Shown: piece after piece, positions 68 to 22,773 of the stretch
Position numbering within the stretch: the first letter of the stretch is position 1
Layout: every line of letters starts with the position of its first letter
Assembly (NCBI RefSeq): GCF_000479045.1
Contig: NZ_KI518200.1
Location: forward strand, 1-64,000
Length of the DNA: 64,000 nucleotides
From: Cetobacterium somerae ATCC BAA-474
GTDB lineage: Bacteria; Fusobacteriota; Fusobacteriia; Fusobacteriales; Fusobacteriaceae
Direction: 5' to 3'
Notes under the pieces: model-generated
Databases searched by the model: none
The model's input: only the letters and a program-made list of their open reading frames with translations
Told to the model about the DNA's origin: nothing
Program-made: the position numbers and the translations under genes

Positions 68-80
68 TAACTTTTTTTAA

Positions 81-115
81 AAAAAATACACATTTTTTTC
101 AAATGTGTATTTTTT
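81..115 (-). terminator. Intrinsic terminator of the pilus operon
   Basis: A perfect 15-bp inverted repeat (81-95 and 101-115) with a 5-base loop is flanked by A and T runs. It lies 7 bases past the stop codon of the chaperone gene and closes that operon. Confidence 0.85.
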
Positions 116-121
116 ATTTAA

Positions 122-871
122 TTATAAAGTATCTGTTACTTTTTTATCAATAACTTTATCTTGTGAATCATATATAGTTACTCTAACTTTTTTTCCTTTC
201 AATTTTTCAATTTTCATTGAACTTTCTATTTTTGATTTCCCAGTTCTTTCTGTTCTTCCAAATTGTGAATCAATAGTATCACTTATAGTTCCTCCTGCTC
301 CAAGAATTTCTATTTTTTGTTTTAATAATTCCGAGCTATTTCCCTTAGAGTTTGAATCTGCTGTTATTTTTAAATTTGAAGTTTTTGAATTATAAGAAAT
401 TTGCAAATTAGAAATATTTGTCCCTCTTTTTATCTCTCCGTAATATCCATATATACTAATTCCAACTTCTGTTATCATTTTTATTTGAGCGTCTACTTTA
501 CCTTCATTTTTATTCAATGACTCTTTCAAAGGAATTTCTTTAAACACAACATAACTTTTATATTCTCCAGCTTCCATTCCTACTTCAGGCTTTACTCTAA
601 ATCTTACCACTTGTTTGCTACCTGGTTTGATAGCGACCATTTTAGGATATAACTTTATATGATTATTTAAACTATATTTTTCATATCCAGGAGCACTTTC
701 TAAAAAACTTTCTAATCTCATTGGACTTGTTGTGTTATTTATTAAAGTTATTTCGTTGGTGTTTATCTTATCTAATCCTATTTCAAACCTTGTTGGAGCT
801 ACACTAAAATTAAAAGAATAGCTTGTCAACATTACTAAAAAAAACATAATTCCTAATATAAATTTTTTCAT
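122..871 (-). CDS. Periplasmic pilus chaperone, PapD-like
   Basis: Predicted periplasmic chaperone of a chaperone-usher pathway, holding pilus subunits until the usher takes them. A signal peptide (about residues 1-20, MKKFILGIMFF...) is followed by a PapD N-domain-like immunoglobulin fold: VAPTRFEI, ITLINNT, then LYPKMVAIKPGSKQVVRF, which resembles the chaperone segment containing the conserved proline/arginine strand. At 249 aa it has the usual size. The ATG at 871 is chosen because GGAGTGAG lies 7 bases upstream; an in-frame GTG at 883 would overlap the previous stop codon as GTGA and add four residues. It is the last gene of the operon and follows the MORN-repeat gene by 8 bases. The C-terminal half is divergent. 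The function is inferred from fold-type motifs plus the neighbouring usher. Confidence 0.78.
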   Translation of the reverse strand: MKKFILGIMFFLVMLTSYSFNFSVAPTRFEIGLDKINTNEITLINNTTSPMRLESFLESAPGYEKYSLNNHIKLYPKMVAIKPGSKQVVRFRVKPEVGMEAGEYKSYVVFKEIPLKESLNKNEGKVDAQIKMITEVGISIYGYYGEIKRGTNISNLQISYNSKTSNLKITADSNSKGNSSELLKQKIEILGAGGTISDTIDSQFGRTERTGKSKIESSMKIEKLKGKKVRVTIYDSQDKVIDKKVTDTL

Positions 872-879
872 TTTTTTAC

Positions 880-1788
880 TCACTCCATTTCACTTAATAT
901 TTTATCATATTTTTCATATTTTAAACTTCTATTAAATTTCTTAAATCTATCTACAATAGAATCTTTTAACTCTTTATCTTTTTTCAATACGCTTCCATTA
1001 CTATCAACTTCATTTCCTTGTATAAATCTAGACTTTTGAGCTACTAAACCTGCTTTATCATAAATTATAATTTCACCATCTTTTAAACCATTTTTATAAT
1101 TTACAACAGTTTTTATATCTCCTGTTTTATAAAAAAACTTCCAAACTCCTTCTCTCTTATTATTTTTATAAGTGCCCTCTAACATTTGTGCACCATCTGC
1201 TCCAAATATTTTTATTCCACCATCTATTTTTCCATATTTAAAATTTGTTAATGTTTCTAATATTTCACCTTTATAGAAAAATACAGCTTCACCTTCTAAA
1301 AGTCCATTATAGTATTCTACTTTTGTCAGCAATTCACCAACTGGTGAATATTTTACAACTTTACCATGTAAAATCCCATCCTCTAAATTTTCATAACCTT
1401 CCATATTTTTATTTTCATAAAAATATGTCCATTGACCGTTCGGTTTATCATAATTATACTTCAGAATTCCCTTAGTATCTCCATTCAAGTATTTTAATGT
1501 CCAAACCCCATGTTTAATACCATTTATATATTTTCCTTCATATACAAATCTTTCATTTTTATCTTGAACAAATCCTTGAAAAAATCCATTTTTTATTCCA
1601 TTTTCATATTGTTCTTTTATCCCTTCACCTATTAACTCTCCTGTAAAAGGAGAGGTTTCATTTACCAAATAAACTATCTGGTTTCTTAATGACTTTTTAT
1701 TTATATTCTCTTTCCTTAAACTGGAAAAGGTCAGATTATATAGTACAATATAAGTGATTAAAAAATTTATAACCCATCTTTTCTTCAA
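880..1788 (-). CDS. MORN/YwqK-type repeat protein in a pilus operon
   Basis: 302-aa protein with an N-terminal hydrophobic segment (about residues 7-22, signal peptide or anchor) followed by some eight imperfect repeats of the form G-x-Y-x-N-G-x-x-x-G-x-W/F (for example GKYINGIKHGVWTLKYLNGD and GTYKNNKREGVWKFFYKTGD). These are typical of MORN/YwqK-family proteins, which are abundant in Fusobacteria. The start is TTG at 1788, preceded by GGAGAGAGAGAGG; no better in-frame start is visible. It sits between usher (15-base gap) and chaperone, so it probably acts in the envelope with the pilus, perhaps as an accessory or surface-exposed factor. No enzymatic motif is seen and the role is unknown. 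In other bacteria YwqK proteins are sometimes called antitoxins, which this context does not support. Confidence 0.75.
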   Translation of the reverse strand: MKKRWVINFLITYIVLYNLTFSSLRKENINKKSLRNQIVYLVNETSPFTGELIGEGIKEQYENGIKNGFFQGFVQDKNERFVYEGKYINGIKHGVWTLKYLNGDTKGILKYNYDKPNGQWTYFYENKNMEGYENLEDGILHGKVVKYSPVGELLTKVEYYNGLLEGEAVFFYKGEILETLTNFKYGKIDGGIKIFGADGAQMLEGTYKNNKREGVWKFFYKTGDIKTVVNYKNGLKDGEIIIYDKAGLVAQKSRFIQGNEVDSNGSVLKKDKELKDSIVDRFKKFNRSLKYEKYDKILSEME

Positions 1789-1803
1789 CCTCTCTCTCTC
1801 CTT

Positions 1804-4419
1804 TTAAAAATTATTTAAAATATCATCTAAATCATACCCAGTATCACTTTCATCATTTTGATCTTCATTAGATACAGATTCATTCTCTTCACTAATAGAT
1901 TTATTCACAATAACGTCATAACCTTCGAAATATTCCCCTTCATCCTCATGAATAAGTTTAATATCTACCTCTAAGTAATCTTTTATAAATTTTATATCAT
2001 CACTACCTAAATAGTTAAACTTCATTTTATATTTTCCAGGTAATACATTTTCAAAGAAAAACATTCCATCAAACTCCGGATCTATCTCTTTATATAGTTC
2101 ACCATTTTTTTCTAAGGCTATATTAGTCATACTTAGTATTCTTATTAATTCTTGTGATGAAATATTTTCTCCTGGAATGATATTTCCTGTTACCATTGAT
2201 ACTGCTTGAACCCCTATATCATATCTTGTTCCTATTGATGCTCTTGTTTGAACTTTTTTCTTATCTATAACTTGAGTTAACATTGGATCAATACTTTTTC
2301 TATCTACCTCTACTTTATAATTCTCAAGAGGAAGTAATCCAGGTACAATATACTCTCCATTCAAATCAGAAACTACTTTTTTACCATCAACAACTACTGT
2401 TACATCTGGTAACACAGTTTCTTCAACATCATACTTTCCATTATCATTAGAATCTATATAAACTTTCCCATAAATCCACGAGTTATCAACTTGTCTATCT
2501 CCCACATCTCTTTTTAAATTAGATATATCAAATGTTTTTTCTATGGTTATCCCTGTGTTTAATTCTCCATTTTCTTTTCTAGATACAGGAAGTTCCACAT
2601 AAATATTTTTATCTAAATACATAGTAAAATCTATTGAAAATCTGCTTTTTTTCTCTTCATTATACAAAAGTTCTGTTCCTAAAACATATTCCATTCCTGT
2701 AGAAAAAAACTCTCTTCTTCTTCCTAATACCTTTAAAGAATAGTCTGTTTTCAAGTCTTCATTCTTTTCTATATTAGCCTGTAAAATCATTGTAAATCCA
2801 GACATTCCACCATAGCTCACTCCAGGATTTATAGAATAACTTTTTTTGCTCGTTTCTTTTTGGGTCATTTCCGCATCTAGAAATAATGAAAAGTTTCTAA
2901 TACTTCTGTTTTCCAAACTTATATAATATCCTTTTTCTCTAGTTTTTTCATTAGTTTTTAGTTCCTCTTGATATCCTAATCCTATTCTTGTTGTAATAAA
3001 GTCTCTAGAAATTCCAAAAGAGTTATATTCTATTGTATTATTCTCTTCACTTATATAAGGAGAGTATTTAAAATGCTTTATATTTAAACTATAATCTTTT
3101 ATTTTTTGATTTATTCTAATTTCATAACTATTTTCTTGATTTTCTGTTTCATAAAAATTTTGAAAATTGATTACCATTGGATAACTATTAGATAATCCAA
3201 TTTTATATATAATCTCATTTTTTAATATACTATATTTTCTATTTTTTTCAGATTCTAACTCTAATACTCCTATACCTAAAGTCAAATTCTTAGTAACTCC
3301 ATAATTTATTTCATTTACACTTTGACTTCTTCCATTATTTTTTTCTTGTCCAAATTGTATATTATAATCCCACTCATTTTCACCAAGTAAATTTGAATCT
3401 CCAACTGTATATACTTTTCTTGTTTCTATTTGGCCATTTTTATAATAAATTTTTAATGAATAGTCTCCTCCATAATTTCGATCTCTCACTTCAAATACAA
3501 AGTTCTTTTCTATAGGTCTTTGATAATCTAATAATACTCCACTTTGATATAATTCAATTACATCTGCTCCTTGAGCTTCACCTTTTATCGTTGTTATATT
3601 TCCAACAGTAGAACTATACGTATTTTTTTCACCAAAACTAAACCCTTCAACCATTCCATTTATATTCAAAAAATCTGGTGTTTTTATATAAAACTCTCCT
3701 AAAATCACATCGTTTTTTTTATAAACATCATTATAAGTTAAATTATAATTTTTCATAGAACTTTCTGGCTCTAAATTATAGTTCAAATATAAATCTCCAT
3801 ATAAAAATTGAGTTCCATACTCTAAGTTAAGCTGATTTTCTTTACTTTCCAAATCTATTTTTGAATAATTTACTTTTATCAACCCTGGAGCTAATATCCT
3901 TTTCTCTGGTCTTATTATATTAAACTCTTCATCCTCTTTTTTTTCATTTAATCTAAGCCTCTCAACCTTACCTTTCTCTCTTATTTCAAAAGGCAATATA
4001 AACTCTGGATTTAAAGTTAACTTCAAGTCCTGACTTGACCAATTAGATTCTTTAAATTTAAAATCATTTTCTAATACTTTTAATTCCACATAAATATCAT
4101 CATCAATTACAAAGTTTTTTCCTGATTTTATCTCAACTTTATATTTTTCATTATCCACTTGGAACTGTACAGTTTTTCTTTTTAAATTAACATCAACTGA
4201 GTAAATCTCTAAAAAATAAAATAGTCCTTTTATAGGTATATATATTTGATCATTTTCAAAGTCATATCTAGCCATAAAAAAATCATCTTTTAATGATTTA
4301 CTTTTTATTTCAATGTATGCTTCATCTAGACCTACATCTTCTTGTGCAAATAAATTAGCTGAAGAAAACTGAAAAAAAATAGCTACCAATCCTACATAAG
4401 CTATTTTTATTATTTTCAT
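1804..4419 (-). CDS. Outer-membrane usher-like protein
   Basis: 871 aa with signal peptide (residues 1-25, ending ...FAQ). A small N-terminal domain (about 30-135) is followed by a long alternating hydrophobic/polar region typical of an outer-membrane beta-barrel (about 185-650). Inside it a plug-like segment contains ADVIELYQSGVLLDYQ and NYGGDYSLKIYYKNGQ, matching the usher pattern 'VELYRNGxLI...G.ndl.v'. After the barrel, residues about 660-740 resemble an SdrD-B/carboxypeptidase-regulatory domain (YIDSNDNGKYDVEETVLPDV, SDLNGEYIVPGL). The C-terminus is acidic and asparagine-rich. The start codon overlaps the stop of the upstream gene by one base (TAATG). It probably exports pilus subunits delivered by the chaperone at 122-871. 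Strong divergence from FimD/PapC makes an alternative-clade usher likely; the barrel is inferred from sequence pattern only. Confidence 0.75.
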   Translation of the reverse strand: MKIIKIAYVGLVAIFFQFSSANLFAQEDVGLDEAYIEIKSKSLKDDFFMARYDFENDQIYIPIKGLFYFLEIYSVDVNLKRKTVQFQVDNEKYKVEIKSGKNFVIDDDIYVELKVLENDFKFKESNWSSQDLKLTLNPEFILPFEIREKGKVERLRLNEKKEDEEFNIIRPEKRILAPGLIKVNYSKIDLESKENQLNLEYGTQFLYGDLYLNYNLEPESSMKNYNLTYNDVYKKNDVILGEFYIKTPDFLNINGMVEGFSFGEKNTYSSTVGNITTIKGEAQGADVIELYQSGVLLDYQRPIEKNFVFEVRDRNYGGDYSLKIYYKNGQIETRKVYTVGDSNLLGENEWDYNIQFGQEKNNGRSQSVNEINYGVTKNLTLGIGVLELESEKNRKYSILKNEIIYKIGLSNSYPMVINFQNFYETENQENSYEIRINQKIKDYSLNIKHFKYSPYISEENNTIEYNSFGISRDFITTRIGLGYQEELKTNEKTREKGYYISLENRSIRNFSLFLDAEMTQKETSKKSYSINPGVSYGGMSGFTMILQANIEKNEDLKTDYSLKVLGRRREFFSTGMEYVLGTELLYNEEKKSRFSIDFTMYLDKNIYVELPVSRKENGELNTGITIEKTFDISNLKRDVGDRQVDNSWIYGKVYIDSNDNGKYDVEETVLPDVTVVVDGKKVVSDLNGEYIVPGLLPLENYKVEVDRKSIDPMLTQVIDKKKVQTRASIGTRYDIGVQAVSMVTGNIIPGENISSQELIRILSMTNIALEKNGELYKEIDPEFDGMFFFENVLPGKYKMKFNYLGSDDIKFIKDYLEVDIKLIHEDEGEYFEGYDVIVNKSISEENESVSNEDQNDESDTGYDLDDILNNF

Positions 4420-5258
4420 TAGTTATACCTTACCTTTATTTTTAAATCTCCACTATACTTACCTGGTACTGCTTTTTTAGTATCTCTAACCTGTCCAAAA
4501 AAAGTTACTTTTTTTTCACCTCTTTCAGATAACCTTGTAGAATATTCTTCATTTCCTGTAGAATATAAGTCCGGACTTGATATCTCAACCTTTATACTAC
4601 CTTTCCCCATTTTATTAAACATTTCAACTTCTCTTGGGTAGTTAATTATTACATTCCTATTCGGCTCTCCCTCTATGTTTAAATATCCATGATTTCCATG
4701 TGACGAAGATAGCATCTGCCCTTGTACTCCTATTCCTAAGTCCATTGGAGTTGTTGAAATTTTTAACGTCTTTACTATATCTAACTCCATTCTTACCTCT
4801 ATCATAATTCTATCATAGCTAGAGCTATTTTTTCTTTTCCCTTTTAAGATTAATATAATCGGATACGATGTATATTTCCCACTTAATCTCGAGCTATTTC
4901 TCACTCCTACAACAGTTCTTACTCTTAAATTACAATTACCATTAAACCCTAAAATAACTTTATTATTCGTATCTATAGTTGCATCCAATGGCTCTATCCA
5001 CATTTGCTTTATCTTTATTCGCGGTTCTAACATATGACCCTTCTTAAAAAAATCATTTCCAAAACTTTCAAATTCATAAATTAATTTGTCATAACCACCT
5101 AATCCTGTTATCTTAAAATTATTCGTTAAATAATCTATATTTTGATATCCCTCTCCTACAACTTCTCTTTTTTCAACTAGTCGTGACGTATCTGATTTCA
5201 TATCTCCAAAAATTACTAAACGAAAAATTAATAGAAAAAACAACAAAACTTTTTTCAA
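4419..5258 (-). CDS. Putative fimbrial subunit (DUF4402-like)
   Basis: 279-aa exported protein with a signal peptide (about 1-18). The C-terminal half resembles DUF4402/pilin-like subunits: a P-M-D-L-G-I-G segment, a glycine-rich turn, NRNVIINYP, and the closing VPGKYSGDLKIKVRYN, which matches the 'aG.Y.G.l.v.v.Y' end of such subunits. The start is TTG at 5258 with GGGAGA eight bases upstream. It lies immediately before the usher (one-base overlap), where pilus subunits are commonly encoded. No other subunit gene is present, so it may be the single pilin or a tip adhesin. The N-terminal half (about 30-150) is unrecognised. Assignment rests on the C-terminal pattern and context. Confidence 0.6.
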   Translation of the reverse strand: MKKVLLFFLLIFRLVIFGDMKSDTSRLVEKREVVGEGYQNIDYLTNNFKITGLGGYDKLIYEFESFGNDFFKKGHMLEPRIKIKQMWIEPLDATIDTNNKVILGFNGNCNLRVRTVVGVRNSSRLSGKYTSYPIILILKGKRKNSSSYDRIMIEVRMELDIVKTLKISTTPMDLGIGVQGQMLSSSHGNHGYLNIEGEPNRNVIINYPREVEMFNKMGKGSIKVEISSPDLYSTGNEEYSTRLSERGEKKVTFFGQVRDTKKAVPGKYSGDLKIKVRYN

Positions 5259-5274
5259 AATATATCATCTCCCA

Positions 5275-6741
5275 TTATTTCAGCAATATATTTGATTTCC
5301 CATTTTCTACAGCAATTTTTTCTCTATGTATCAATGGAATATACGGTATATTTTTAGATATTAAAAAAACAATTTTATCATATATTTTATCTCTATTTTC
5401 CTTTTCTTCTTCATCTTTTAAAATCTCTAAAAATGGTAAAGATGCATTATACATATCTTGATCACCTATATCATGCACCATTACTTTTCCCAAATTATAA
5501 ATTAAATACTTTTCATCAAAAAGAACACTATATATAGCTATTTCATAATCTTGATTTTCTAACTTCATTAAGTAAGCCTCTTGTTGGTACGGCACTACTT
5601 CTACTAAAACCCCTTTTAATTCTAATTGTTTTTTCAAACTATTAGCAATTTTTATAGAAATATCGTCATTTAAAACAGTTATCTCTATTTTTTTATTTTT
5701 TACACTACTTTTATTTAAATCATCAATTGAAAAACTACTTTTTCTTACAATAGATAACTTTGACTCAAACAAACTTTCTGGAAAGAATGTACTTACAGAT
5801 TTTTCTTTAAAAATATTTTTCAAAATTTCATCCTTATCGATAGCACTTTCTATAACTTGTCTATTTTTTTTATCTGTAAAAATTTTATTTTTATTTCCAA
5901 ATATTATTGCAACTGTATCCAACTCTTTTGTCTTTTTTAATATTGCATTCTTATCAATAAGTCCTTCTTTTTGAAGTTCTTCTATTTGTTTTGGACTCAA
6001 ATCTAAAACAACATCAACATCCTCATTAAAATATAAAAGTGCTCTTTTTCTATCACTTATCTCTGATAAAATCTCTATTTTAAAAGGACCTGGATTTTTC
6101 TTAAAATATTTATCATTCTTAGATAAAATAACCTCTTTACTTGTTATTTTATCCAATTTATATGGCCCAGTTCCATAAATAATTCCATTTTCATACTTAG
6201 TTATTGAACACATATAATAAGTCAACATTGATAAAAAAAGATTATTTTTTCCTCTTAACTTTATCTCTATTGTATTTATATCTATAATTTTTATATTTTG
6301 AATATCATTAAAAAAATCTTTAAAAACACCACTTTTTAACATCCTCTCAAAAGATTCTTTTACATCTTTTGCTGACATTTTATCCCCATTTTGAAAATAA
6401 ACATCTTCTCTTAACTTAAGTTCTAAAACTCTGTCATCTTTCCATTCCCATTTTTCAACTAAATTTGGAACAACTTCACCTTTTTCATTATAATTAAATA
6501 ATGTATCATAAAGATAGTCTACAACTCTCATTGAATACTGATCCTTCATTAAAATAGGATCTACAGTTGCTATTTTAACTGCTTGCACTATTTTTATTTC
6601 ATCATTATTACTATTAATTATATTATCTTTATTTAAATCACTATACTCATTAAATGGTATCTCTTCTAAATAAGTTTCCACTTCTCCAAAAGTTAAGGTT
6701 ATTGTCAGAGTAAATAAAATTAAGCATAAATATCTTTTCAA
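5275..6741 (-). CDS. Orphan SBP_bac_5 (peptide/nickel-type) binding protein
   Basis: 488 aa, family of periplasmic oligopeptide/dipeptide/nickel-binding proteins. A signal peptide without lipobox (about 1-19) is followed by the family signatures DYLYDTLFNYNEKGEVVPNL, VYFQNGDKMSAKDVKESFER and GTGPYKLDK. No ABC permease or ATPase gene is nearby, so transport is unlikely to be its local job. It sits 17 bases after a receptor that itself carries solute-binding modules, so presenting a ligand to that receptor is a reasonable inference. Start is TTG at 6741 with AGAGGTGA upstream. It lacks the Cys that anchors many such proteins in the membrane, so a soluble periplasmic protein is expected. The ligand is unknown. 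Confidence 0.82.
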   Translation of the reverse strand: MKRYLCLILFTLTITLTFGEVETYLEEIPFNEYSDLNKDNIINSNNDEIKIVQAVKIATVDPILMKDQYSMRVVDYLYDTLFNYNEKGEVVPNLVEKWEWKDDRVLELKLREDVYFQNGDKMSAKDVKESFERMLKSGVFKDFFNDIQNIKIIDINTIEIKLRGKNNLFLSMLTYYMCSITKYENGIIYGTGPYKLDKITSKEVILSKNDKYFKKNPGPFKIEILSEISDRKRALLYFNEDVDVVLDLSPKQIEELQKEGLIDKNAILKKTKELDTVAIIFGNKNKIFTDKKNRQVIESAIDKDEILKNIFKEKSVSTFFPESLFESKLSIVRKSSFSIDDLNKSSVKNKKIEITVLNDDISIKIANSLKKQLELKGVLVEVVPYQQEAYLMKLENQDYEIAIYSVLFDEKYLIYNLGKVMVHDIGDQDMYNASLPFLEILKDEEEKENRDKIYDKIVFLISKNIPYIPLIHREKIAVENGKSNILLK

Positions 6742-6758
6742 ATTTTCACCTCTTAATA

Positions 6759-8867
6759 TTATTTATTATTTTTTATTGCAGAATAGAATTCTGTTGCTAA
6801 ATCTAACGACTCTTTATTTTCTTCATAAATCTTTTCAAATTCTTTATTATTTGCTACAAAAATATCAACTAGTTCTGGATCAAAACTTTTTCCTTTCTCA
6901 TTTTCAATCATTGTTAAGGCTTCTAAATGAGACAGTGCACCTCTATGGAATTTCTTTTGTCTCAATGCATCATACACATCAACAACAGCTACAATTCTCG
7001 CTTCTAGCGGAATATTCTCTCCTTTCAATCCTAAAGGATAACCACTTCCATCCCATTTTTCATGGTGATATCTAACTATATTTTCAGCTACTTTTCCTAG
7101 TTTTAATTTTTTTACTAGATCATACCCTATATTTACATGTTCTTTCACTTTATTAAATTCATCTTTAGTTAATTTAGATGGTTTTTTCAAAATTTCTGAT
7201 GGAATTGCAACTTTTCCTATATCATGCAAAGAAGAAAATCTTTTAATATTCTCTCTTGATTCTGTAGGAACATTTGCCTTTTCAGATAAAAGGGTTGAAT
7301 ACATCCCTAGTCTTTTCACATGATCTCCTGTATCTTCATCATTTAGTTGATTTGCCATCTCTAAAACTTCGATTAATGAAAAACTTAATTCTTCAGCTTT
7401 TTTTCTATTTTTTTCAGATTTAACTATTAATATTATTAAAATAAATATAAATATTACTACTGGTATTGATATTTTTAAAATTAATTTATAATTTTGAGTA
7501 ACTATAGAATTTTTTAACAAATTATTATCTATAACTGTTTTATCAACAGTGAAACTTTCTAATATTGTTTCTATTAAATTTGATAACTCTTTTTGTTCTT
7601 TTGAAATTCCAAAACTAACTCCAAAAGAATCATTTAATATTCCAGCTACTTTAATTTTATCATCTAAAAAATTATTACTTATTACTCCCGTCAATATATT
7701 AAAATAACCTACTAAATATTCACCATCTTGACTTAATAACTTTTCTAATCCCTCTTCATAACTTTCAACTTCTATTATCTGACTATTTTTTAGTATATTT
7801 TTTAAATAAGTATAGCTATAATCCCCTTTTAATACTAATATTTTAGCTTTATCTAAATCTGAAATATTTTGTATAAACCCATCAGATTTTCTATTTGCCA
7901 CTGATAATTTCATTTCATAGTATGGTTTTGTATAATTAATTTTACTTTTACCTTCACTATTTTCAATGGCTATTCCTTCCATATCATATTCTCCATTTTT
8001 TATAAAAACAAATGGCACCCCTATTATTTGCTCTAACTCTTTAGTTATATTAACTGTTAATCCTTGGTAAATACCCTTTTGTTCATAGTAAAAAGGTAAC
8101 ATAAATTTATCTTTTCCTAATTTCACTTTTATAGTTTTATAGCTTTCCTTTACTTTTTCATAACTTGGTGTATCTTTTAGTAAATACTTATAAAATTCTA
8201 TTCTATTTTTTGATAATAATTTTTGAAAACTATCTCCTTCTATAGTGTCCATAGTTTCCTCTATCTCTTTATGAATATTTTTCAAATTTTTCTTAATTGC
8301 TATTTGTTCGTTATATCTAATATTCTCTAAAAGTTTATAATTTGTTTCTCCTGAATTTTTATCATACCAATCTTGTGCTATAAAAGCATCAACTTCTCCC
8401 TCTGAAAGTTTTTCTAATCCTTCGTCTAAGTTTTTCACTTCGATTTTTTCTAGATTTAAGTTGTTGTATCTTTCTTTAAACTCTTTTAATCCATGTTGAT
8501 TTGGAATATATGCTACTTTCAAATTTTTTACATTTCCTAAGTTGGAAAGTGTGGAATTTTTATTAACAACAACTCCTACTCTATATATCATTGGAGTATC
8601 AAAATAATCATACACTCTCTTCCCATCAAGAGTTTCAATCGTTCTTAGTACAACGTCACTATCTTCACCATCTAAATTTATACTTATATTTTTATTTTTT
8701 AATACATCTGCAAAAATATCTATATAAACTCCTTGATATTCACCTTTCTCTAAATCTTTATACAAATACATATCTGTTGTATTTGATGGTATTGTTATAT
8801 TAATGTTATCTTTTGAAAAAATACTACAACTTACTAACATTAAATATAATAATATTATTTTTTTCAT
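6759..8867 (-). CDS. Two SBP_bac_3 sensor modules + TM + HD-GYP phosphodiesterase
   Basis: 702-aa membrane receptor. The signal sequence ends in LVSC (Cys14, a possible lipobox). Two tandem SBP_bac_3-like periplasmic modules follow (about 20-230 and 246-450), then one transmembrane helix (about 461-482) and a cytoplasmic HD-GYP domain (about 505-680). The HD-GYP domain shows H516, the H548-D549 pair in LHDIGK, H577, HH601-602 and the GYP at 609-611 in WDGSGYPLGL, so it looks catalytically complete for c-di-GMP hydrolysis. The ATG at 8867 is chosen because GGAGG lies five A residues upstream; the frame stays open 16 codons further into the leader without a ribosome site. The c-di-GMP-I riboswitch immediately upstream suggests that its own substrate controls its expression. 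First gene of the pilus operon. Confidence 0.92.
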   Translation of the reverse strand: MKKIILLYLMLVSCSIFSKDNINITIPSNTTDMYLYKDLEKGEYQGVYIDIFADVLKNKNISINLDGEDSDVVLRTIETLDGKRVYDYFDTPMIYRVGVVVNKNSTLSNLGNVKNLKVAYIPNQHGLKEFKERYNNLNLEKIEVKNLDEGLEKLSEGEVDAFIAQDWYDKNSGETNYKLLENIRYNEQIAIKKNLKNIHKEIEETMDTIEGDSFQKLLSKNRIEFYKYLLKDTPSYEKVKESYKTIKVKLGKDKFMLPFYYEQKGIYQGLTVNITKELEQIIGVPFVFIKNGEYDMEGIAIENSEGKSKINYTKPYYEMKLSVANRKSDGFIQNISDLDKAKILVLKGDYSYTYLKNILKNSQIIEVESYEEGLEKLLSQDGEYLVGYFNILTGVISNNFLDDKIKVAGILNDSFGVSFGISKEQKELSNLIETILESFTVDKTVIDNNLLKNSIVTQNYKLILKISIPVVIFIFILIILIVKSEKNRKKAEELSFSLIEVLEMANQLNDEDTGDHVKRLGMYSTLLSEKANVPTESRENIKRFSSLHDIGKVAIPSEILKKPSKLTKDEFNKVKEHVNIGYDLVKKLKLGKVAENIVRYHHEKWDGSGYPLGLKGENIPLEARIVAVVDVYDALRQKKFHRGALSHLEALTMIENEKGKSFDPELVDIFVANNKEFEKIYEENKESLDLATEFYSAIKNNK

Positions 8868-8893
8868 TTTTTCCTCCATAAATAATTTTTTGC

Positions 8894-8929
8894 AAAAAAA
8901 AACTGCAATAATCACAAAGACTACTGCAG
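8894..8929 (-). terminator. Riboswitch expression-platform terminator
   Basis: Minus-strand hairpin: arms 8919-8929 and 8903-8913 (11 bp, two G-U pairs), loop 8914-8918, then nine U residues (8894-8902). The 5' arm overlaps the 3' edge of the c-di-GMP aptamer, as in transcription-controlling riboswitches. The U run ends 27 bases before the start codon at 8867. Confidence 0.9.
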
Positions 8930-8992
8930 CTGGCTGCCATTTTAAAGACCCTATAGCTTTGCGTCATAGGGTTTCCCCTACTTTGCCTTATA
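8921..8992 (-). promoter_or_regulatory. c-di-GMP-I (GEMM) riboswitch aptamer
   Basis: Minus-strand RNA reads AAGGCAAAG, then TAGGG-GAAA-CCCTA (P2 with GAAA tetraloop), GACGCAAAGC, GGGUCUUUAAAA and GGCAGCC. These are the conserved elements of the GEMM-I class in order. It lies between a consensus promoter and an intrinsic terminator, upstream of the HD-GYP gene. The class recognises cyclic di-GMP; the sequence does not settle whether binding turns expression on or off. Confidence 0.93.
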
Positions 8993-9010
8993 AATAAAGA
9001 TTTCTCTTTA

Positions 9011-9039
9011 ATTATAATCAATCAAAACATTAAAGTCAA
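9011..9039 (-). promoter_or_regulatory. Promoter of the c-di-GMP/pilus operon
   Basis: Minus strand TTGACT (9034-9039), 17-base spacer, TATAAT (9011-9016). The expected start near 9004 lies about 12 bases before the riboswitch aptamer. It is located just after the guaB stop codon. Confidence 0.88.
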
Positions 9040-22618: not shown

Positions 22619-22669
22619 TACAAGATCAAATTTAAAATATATCAAAAAAACATACATTTAAAATTTATC

Positions 22670-22735
22670 CTTGTAGTCTGCCAATTTACGGTGGCAGGTA
22701 GAGACTCGTTGACCTTATTTCAACTATTATACAAG
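22670..22735 (-). promoter_or_regulatory. Purine riboswitch aptamer, guanine type
   Basis: Three-way junction on the minus strand: P1 CUUGUA/UACAAG (22730-22735 with 22670-22675), P2 GUUGA/UCAAC, J2/3 with UCUACC, P3 CUGCCA/UGGCAG with a CCGUAAA loop, and J3/1 GACUA. The C in GACUA is the residue that selects guanine or hypoxanthine rather than adenine. It lies downstream of the promoter and upstream of a terminator, so ligand-stabilised P1 should favour termination and shut down purE-D. Confidence 0.95.
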
Positions 22736-22773
22736 TTTTATTTATTTTGTTTTTTAATACTTTTCCTATTTCA

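Follow-up and report, generated by a model that had tools for sequence, protein, structure and literature searches.

Organization of the locus

The window analysed here, that is, the whole stretch of 64,000 nucleotides (G000:C145:1-64000), belongs to a 3.07 Mb genome of 172 contigs from Cetobacterium, a bacterium of the fish gut. Six co-directional genes, all on the minus strand and separated by gaps of 15–17 nt or overlapping by 1–4 nt, occupy the beginning of the contig. From the promoter onwards they encode an HD-GYP protein, a solute-binding protein, a two-domain subunit, an usher, a MORN protein and a chaperone. The features are as follows:

9011..9039, minus strand: sigma-70-type promoter, TTGACT-17-TATAAT, matching the consensus at 11/12 positions
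8922..8997, minus strand: c-di-GMP-I (GEMM-I) riboswitch aptamer (RF01051, 61.8 bits, E 1.1e-9)
8901..8931, minus strand: intrinsic terminator (expression platform), 13 pairs and then a T run
6759..8867, minus strand: membrane-anchored predicted HD-GYP c-di-GMP phosphodiesterase with a periplasmic SBP3-type sensor region (HD_5 2.6e-34, SBP_bac_3 1.3e-8)
5275..6741, minus strand: orphan family-5 solute-binding protein (SBP5), nickel/peptide type (SBP_bac_5)
4419..5258, minus strand: two-domain subunit, candidate tip adhesin, with C-terminal DUF4402 (at cut-off; AlphaFold2 pLDDT 87)
1804..4419, minus strand: outer-membrane usher of a divergent clade, FimD/PapC fold (AlphaFold2 pLDDT 78)
880..1788, minus strand: MORN_2-repeat secreted protein, conserved in the operon (MORN_2 below cut-off)
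122..883, minus strand: PapD-type periplasmic chaperone (PapD_N 27 bits, cut-off 23)
about 80..112, minus strand: AT-rich terminator-like hairpin closing the operon, read by eye (AATACACAT...ATGTGTATT, then a T run)

The promoter, GEMM-I aptamer and terminator that the initial annotation had placed ahead of six tightly spaced genes were thus confirmed. Within 9.3 kb, 68 promoter-like sites were counted where shuffled sequences gave an expectation of 60.6. Two of them scored 11/12, one at 9039-9011 and the other at 150-121, within the 3′ end of the chaperone gene, and no convincing internal promoter was found in the operon. Terminator-like sites numbered 4, with 1.2 expected. In two relatives (G009 and G006), an rRNA operon is the next feature downstream of the chaperone-usher operon, which is the likely reason why the contig begins at the operon end. 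Elsewhere in the window, a purine riboswitch was detected on the minus strand (22654-22754, 77.9 bits).

The HD-GYP protein and the orphan SBP5

The ORF of the first gene is open from a GTG at 8915, which falls within the terminator; the ATG at 8867, behind a GGAGG motif, is more likely to be the start and gives a protein of 702 aa. Its catalytic motifs (TGDHVKR, HDIGK and HHEKWDGSGYP) are complete, and the protein is predicted to hydrolyse c-di-GMP. The SBP3 domains suggest that this activity probably depends on a periplasmic ligand. The SBP3-GGDEF protein of contig C57 was considered as a sister sensor and discarded (BLASTP E of only 0.006).

The second gene, described in the initial annotation as an orphan substrate-binding protein, indeed encodes an SBP5, and inspection of its neighbourhood revealed no adjoining permease gene. 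Perhaps SBP5 presents a ligand to the HD-GYP sensor, as NspS does for MbaA of Vibrio cholerae, in which a periplasmic solute-binding protein is coupled to a membrane c-di-GMP receptor (PMC8967002); we put this forward tentatively, as one part that is compatible with our main explanation and that fits an adjacent orphan protein lacking a permease. Against it, SBP5 is kept beside the usher genes where the HD-GYP gene has been lost (L064, L066 and L070), thus it is not simply the partner of HD-GYP. It must have a further role, and an NspS-MbaA-like one cannot be its sole one.

A divergent usher and a candidate tip adhesin

The Pfam usher family PF00577 matched neither the window protein nor any of its 12 usher relatives, and found nothing across the whole genome. 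The only Pfam matches of the protein, of the SdrD_B/CarboxypepD_reg type, were below the cut-off, and a sequence profile search against PDB gave only SdrD-like repeats and was set aside. However, the 17 best Foldseek matches of its AlphaFold2 model were all to FimD/PapC (E 8.5e-23 to 4.8e-12), with SdrD as the next match (E 1.5e-8). Against FimD/PapC, Z ranged from 16.2 to 19.0. TM-scores ranged from 0.27 to 0.48 and the structure models were built from 10–12 sequences, two points that count against our main explanation. Homologues in G014 and G033 do match PF00577, one of them above the cut-off, which bridges the window clade to known ushers. The modelled fold agrees with that of an usher (a beta-barrel with plug, and periplasmic domains at the N and C termini), so the identity first proposed for this gene stands by fold, though PF00577 misses it.

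The model of the subunit found CsuE as its best Foldseek match (2.4e-9), followed by CfaB/CfaE, PapG and FimH, that is, two-domain tip adhesins, which makes it a candidate for a tip adhesin rather than for a rod pilin. The gene first labelled as a fimbrial-like subunit thus encodes a two-domain protein similar to tip adhesins. Among the pilins of relatives, one passed the cut-off of SCPU, the domain of pilins of the archaic Csu type, and others matched it weakly.

A dispersed riboswitch regulon

The genome holds nine GEMM-I copies, eight scored and one broken by an N run (L107). Three of them precede usher operons, namely the window operon and two others (on C125 and C10). Others lie ahead of DUF4402 pilins on C21, C43 and C57, an SBP3-GGDEF cyclase on C57, a 105-aa secreted protein on C125, and a small ORF on C80 whose counterpart in G009 is a MarR-type regulator. 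Other Cetobacterium genomes carry GEMM-I ahead of GGDEF-EAL proteins and an adhesin-sized ORF. In the seven riboswitch-bearing genomes scanned, every small DUF4402 pilin gene (13/13) has a same-strand GEMM-I no more than 1.2 kb upstream; any gene standing between the two is another small pilin-like gene.

No small pilin gene is present in the operon of the window or of the other Cetobacterium genomes. The window operon would thus supply platform and tip, and the rod subunits would come from the riboswitch-headed cassettes elsewhere. This corrects the initial description of a self-contained module, as each cassette of small DUF4402 pilins is set apart from the operon and has a GEMM-I of its own, and as further genes stand behind other riboswitches; the locus appears to be the assembly platform within a riboswitch regulon that is dispersed over the genome.

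The missing small pilin, together with the tip-adhesin-like shape of the two-domain subunit, could also mean that the usher merely displays this adhesin or secretes short polymers and that no pilus is formed, the small DUF4402 proteins serving otherwise. We consider this improbable, since the operon of other genera begins with a small subunit gene and is followed by pilin and chaperone cassettes, and since a relative's pilin matches SCPU.

Three further arrangements were observed. A stand-alone EAL-domain gene lies inside the GEMM-I-headed usher operon of C125 (L046:6803-7510), making it a second phosphodiesterase in a riboswitch-controlled usher operon. At L118:1004-4999, a GEMM-I with A at position 20 (see below) precedes a very long ORF (>1332 aa) that begins like an autotransporter and has no Pfam match. 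A MarR-type winged-helix regulator of 96 aa stands behind GEMM-I in Cetobacterium (L117:975-1265 and L048:7055-7345), and through it c-di-GMP may feed a transcription factor by way of RNA.

Conservation of the operon in relatives

Usher homologues were detected in 41 of 100 relatives, all within the same family. Usher relatives with a species or genus name came from Cetobacterium MAGs, Fusobacterium and other Fusobacteriaceae. The full order of riboswitch, HD-GYP, SBP5, adhesin, usher, MORN protein and chaperone recurs in 14 genomes. It is exact in seven Cetobacterium genomes (the window and L051-L056); in L061, L062, L063, L069, L080, L087 and L114, an extra gene for a small subunit follows the riboswitch, the last two loci being from F. 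mortiferum and a close relative. The order is conserved down to about 40% usher identity, which argues against chance. Two cases count against the association: in one genus (L059 and L060), GGDEF domains occur but no riboswitch could be detected with the HD-GYP operon, and F. mortiferum has a second copy of the operon without riboswitch or HD-GYP (L070, L071 and L093).

Platform operons without riboswitch and HD-GYP (L064-L066 and L070) indicate that the usher genes can be expressed on their own, and they would suit a reading in which HD-GYP and SBP5 are the main targets of the riboswitch, while the chaperone-usher genes have a promoter of their own and are juxtaposed passively. This seems unlikely to us given the gaps of 15–17 nt or overlaps, promoter-like matches no commoner than in shuffled sequences, the gene order held in 14 genomes, and the pilin cassettes elsewhere that carry their own GEMM-I. 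The riboswitch, the HD-GYP gene with its complete active site and the chaperone-usher genes are therefore best taken as a single conserved operon.

Loss of the c-di-GMP layer together with diguanylate cyclases

Among 61 Fusobacteriaceae genomes, GEMM-I was found in 37 of the 44 with GGDEF domains and in 0 of the 17 without (Fisher 6e-10, in a test that ignores the relatedness of the genomes). However, usher-bearing genomes without GGDEF occur in four genera (g1, g2, g7 and g13), and all four genera include riboswitch-positive members as well. Three of the GGDEF-less genomes (G029, G041 and G054) retain the usher operon (L064-L067) without an HD-GYP domain, and a purpose-built model found no riboswitch at these four loci. 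One copy in G054 has retained the sensor, aligning to residues 17-458, with the catalytic part gone. HD_5 was absent from all 10 scanned GGDEF-less genomes of the family. In G054, the usher gene at L067:8228-10854 is split into two frames, as is the chaperone gene, beside a truncated HD-GYP gene, and this copy is decaying.

Since the usher operon survives where cyclases, riboswitch and HD-GYP are lost, the c-di-GMP layer appears to be a module that can be taken away from a core of chaperone-usher genes. The co-loss lends weight to the loop of riboswitch and breakdown enzyme that had been proposed at the outset, and amounts to a rare natural test of the riboswitch ligand.

The leader as a putative ON switch

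The score of the window aptamer exceeds the Rfam gathering score of RF01051 (35 bits), and a chance match is ruled out by the E value of 1e-9, the nine genomic copies and the conserved sites. An alignment of 28 GEMM-I homologues was used to compare positions 20 and 92, which we take to be the sites separating the c-di-GMP type from the cGAMP type. The window aptamer has G at position 20 (GGCAAA) and C92 (...UGC) at window position 8926. A G20A change makes GEMM-I of the cGAMP rather than the c-di-GMP type (PMC6274999). As the window has G20 and all GGDEF domains in the genome have the canonical D (11/11 with GHxxGD or GQxxGD), cGAMP was rejected as the first choice of ligand.

An A at position 20 was present in 7/28 aligned fusobacterial sites (L045:222-297, L055:16233-16308, L061:2909-2985, L061:16086-16161, L062:14690-14765, L068:10713-10788 and L069:17246-17322). 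Even orthologous HD-GYP leaders differ there, with A in G005 and G in G003, and A20-type sites occur although the GGDEF domains of the genome itself are all canonical.

In the window leader, the terminator begins its 5′ arm at -4 relative to C92, so that the arm takes in C92 and the base of P3. A start at -4 or -5 is common to all seven HD-GYP leaders of Cetobacterium, and among 26 fusobacterial sites, 18 have a start between -5 and -1; the other 8/26 lack a strong C92-sequestering terminator, which counts against our explanation. The full leader folded at -31.5 kcal/mol and, with the P3 base enforced, at -28.4 kcal/mol, a cost of about 3 kcal/mol at which the terminator stem frays beside the U tract. 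Because its 5′ arm covers C92, the terminator is expected to compete with the ligand-bound aptamer, and the two are, judged by sequence, mutually exclusive. In pilM, a proven ON switch, the terminator sequesters the ligand-pairing cytidine C75 (PMC9262584). The initial annotation had named no direction for the switch; with C92 sequestered in the same manner, high c-di-GMP should turn the operon on, and we infer that the window riboswitch is a transcriptional ON switch.

An OFF switch, in which transcription is halted by c-di-GMP and a low level of the ligand induces pili and phosphodiesterase (a positive feedback on low c-di-GMP), has a precedent within the c-di-GMP-I class in Cd1 of C. difficile, but it is very unlikely here, since the Cd1 terminator lies downstream of the aptamer and coexists with it (PMC9262584), whereas the 5′ arm here includes the P3 base and C92, and no separate antiterminator was seen in the window leader.

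Related arrangements outside Fusobacteriota

A relative of the window usher (E 3e-61) was identified, with a chaperone, in Psychromonas sp. MB-3u-54, where three tandem GEMM-I (53-55 bits; L092:5961-6971) precede the chaperone/usher operon. Each is followed by a terminator-like hairpin, and all three have C at position 20. GEMM-I is thus associated with this usher clade in more than one phylum, by transfer or by independent recruitment. In Omnitrophota, four-gene clusters (L094:4796-10570 and L095:4808-10570) encode a 950-aa protein that shares the C-terminal part of the usher only, and these are possibly another hidden usher clade.

Proposed mechanism and comparison with known systems

We consider it probable that the window operon encodes a chaperone-usher pilus platform under RNA-level c-di-GMP ON control, with HD-GYP as a brake. 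Transcription would begin at the promoter, which looks constitutive. When c-di-GMP is scarce, the leader would fold into the terminator and RNA polymerase would stop; when it is plentiful, the ligand would pair with C92 and hold the aptamer, so that the full terminator could not form and the operon would be read. Chaperone, usher and tip adhesin would then be made, perhaps with some contribution of SBP5 and the MORN protein, and the riboswitch copies before small pilin genes elsewhere would turn on the rod subunits simultaneously. As the HD-GYP gene is on the same transcript as the ON switch, its phosphodiesterase, with a periplasmic sensor, should act as the operon's own negative feedback, degrading c-di-GMP in a probably ligand-dependent manner.

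A wider reading, which we offer as a possibility only, is that of a chaperone-usher clade of Fusobacteriaceae, hidden from present HMMs, with a dispersed regulon in which copies of a single c-di-GMP ON switch govern the platform, the alternative pilin cassettes, the cyclases and the phosphodiesterases. RNA might then set the make-up of the pilus, and variation at position 20 (G or A, and C in Psychromonas) might tune affinity or admit a second ligand.

To our knowledge, chaperone-usher pili have been described as being under protein regulators or phase switches. Here, c-di-GMP would instead be sensed directly by an RNA switch that governs both platform and pilins and comes with its own brake. 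Taken singly, GEMM-I, HD-GYP and chaperone-usher systems are already known. Lists of ushers or archaic systems cover Proteobacteria, Cyanobacteria and Deinococcus-Thermus, and in one of them Spirochaetes, but not Fusobacteria (PMC4654587; PMC4827864). Within the part of the non-subscription literature covered, queries combining Fusobacteria with c-di-GMP riboswitch, chaperone-usher or usher protein gave no report of the locus; titles and abstracts there contained neither the combination of c-di-GMP riboswitch and chaperone-usher system nor any paper on DUF4402. If our explanation is true, it widens the range of chaperone-usher pili to a phylum that counts important inhabitants of gut and mouth among its members, accounts for ushers missed by automatic annotation, and provides a compact natural c-di-GMP feedback circuit.

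The closest regulatory parallel is the pilM 3′,3′-cGAMP riboswitch of Geobacter metallireducens, a GEMM-Ib ON switch with the same GEMM-I fold, a terminator sequestering the ligand-pairing C, and control of pilus genes. The window leader differs from it in having G20, the c-di-GMP type, in controlling a chaperone-usher system rather than type IV pili, and in carrying a phosphodiesterase on the same transcript. Cd1 of C. difficile shares the aptamer class, but is an OFF switch, whereas the window leader is predicted to be ON. With NspS-MbaA, the polyamine/c-di-GMP receptor of V. cholerae, the locus shares a periplasmic solute-binding protein and a membrane c-di-GMP enzyme controlling surface structures; here, however, the sensor domains are fused to HD-GYP, and the extra SBP5 is from another family. 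With the archaic (sigma) Csu pili of Acinetobacter baumannii, it has in common the chaperone, the usher and the two-domain tip adhesin, along with the SCPU pilin match in one relative. In contrast to Csu, the window usher is missed by PF00577, the subunits are of the DUF4402 type, the system belongs to Fusobacteriota and would be under riboswitch control, and its pilins lie in separate cassettes.
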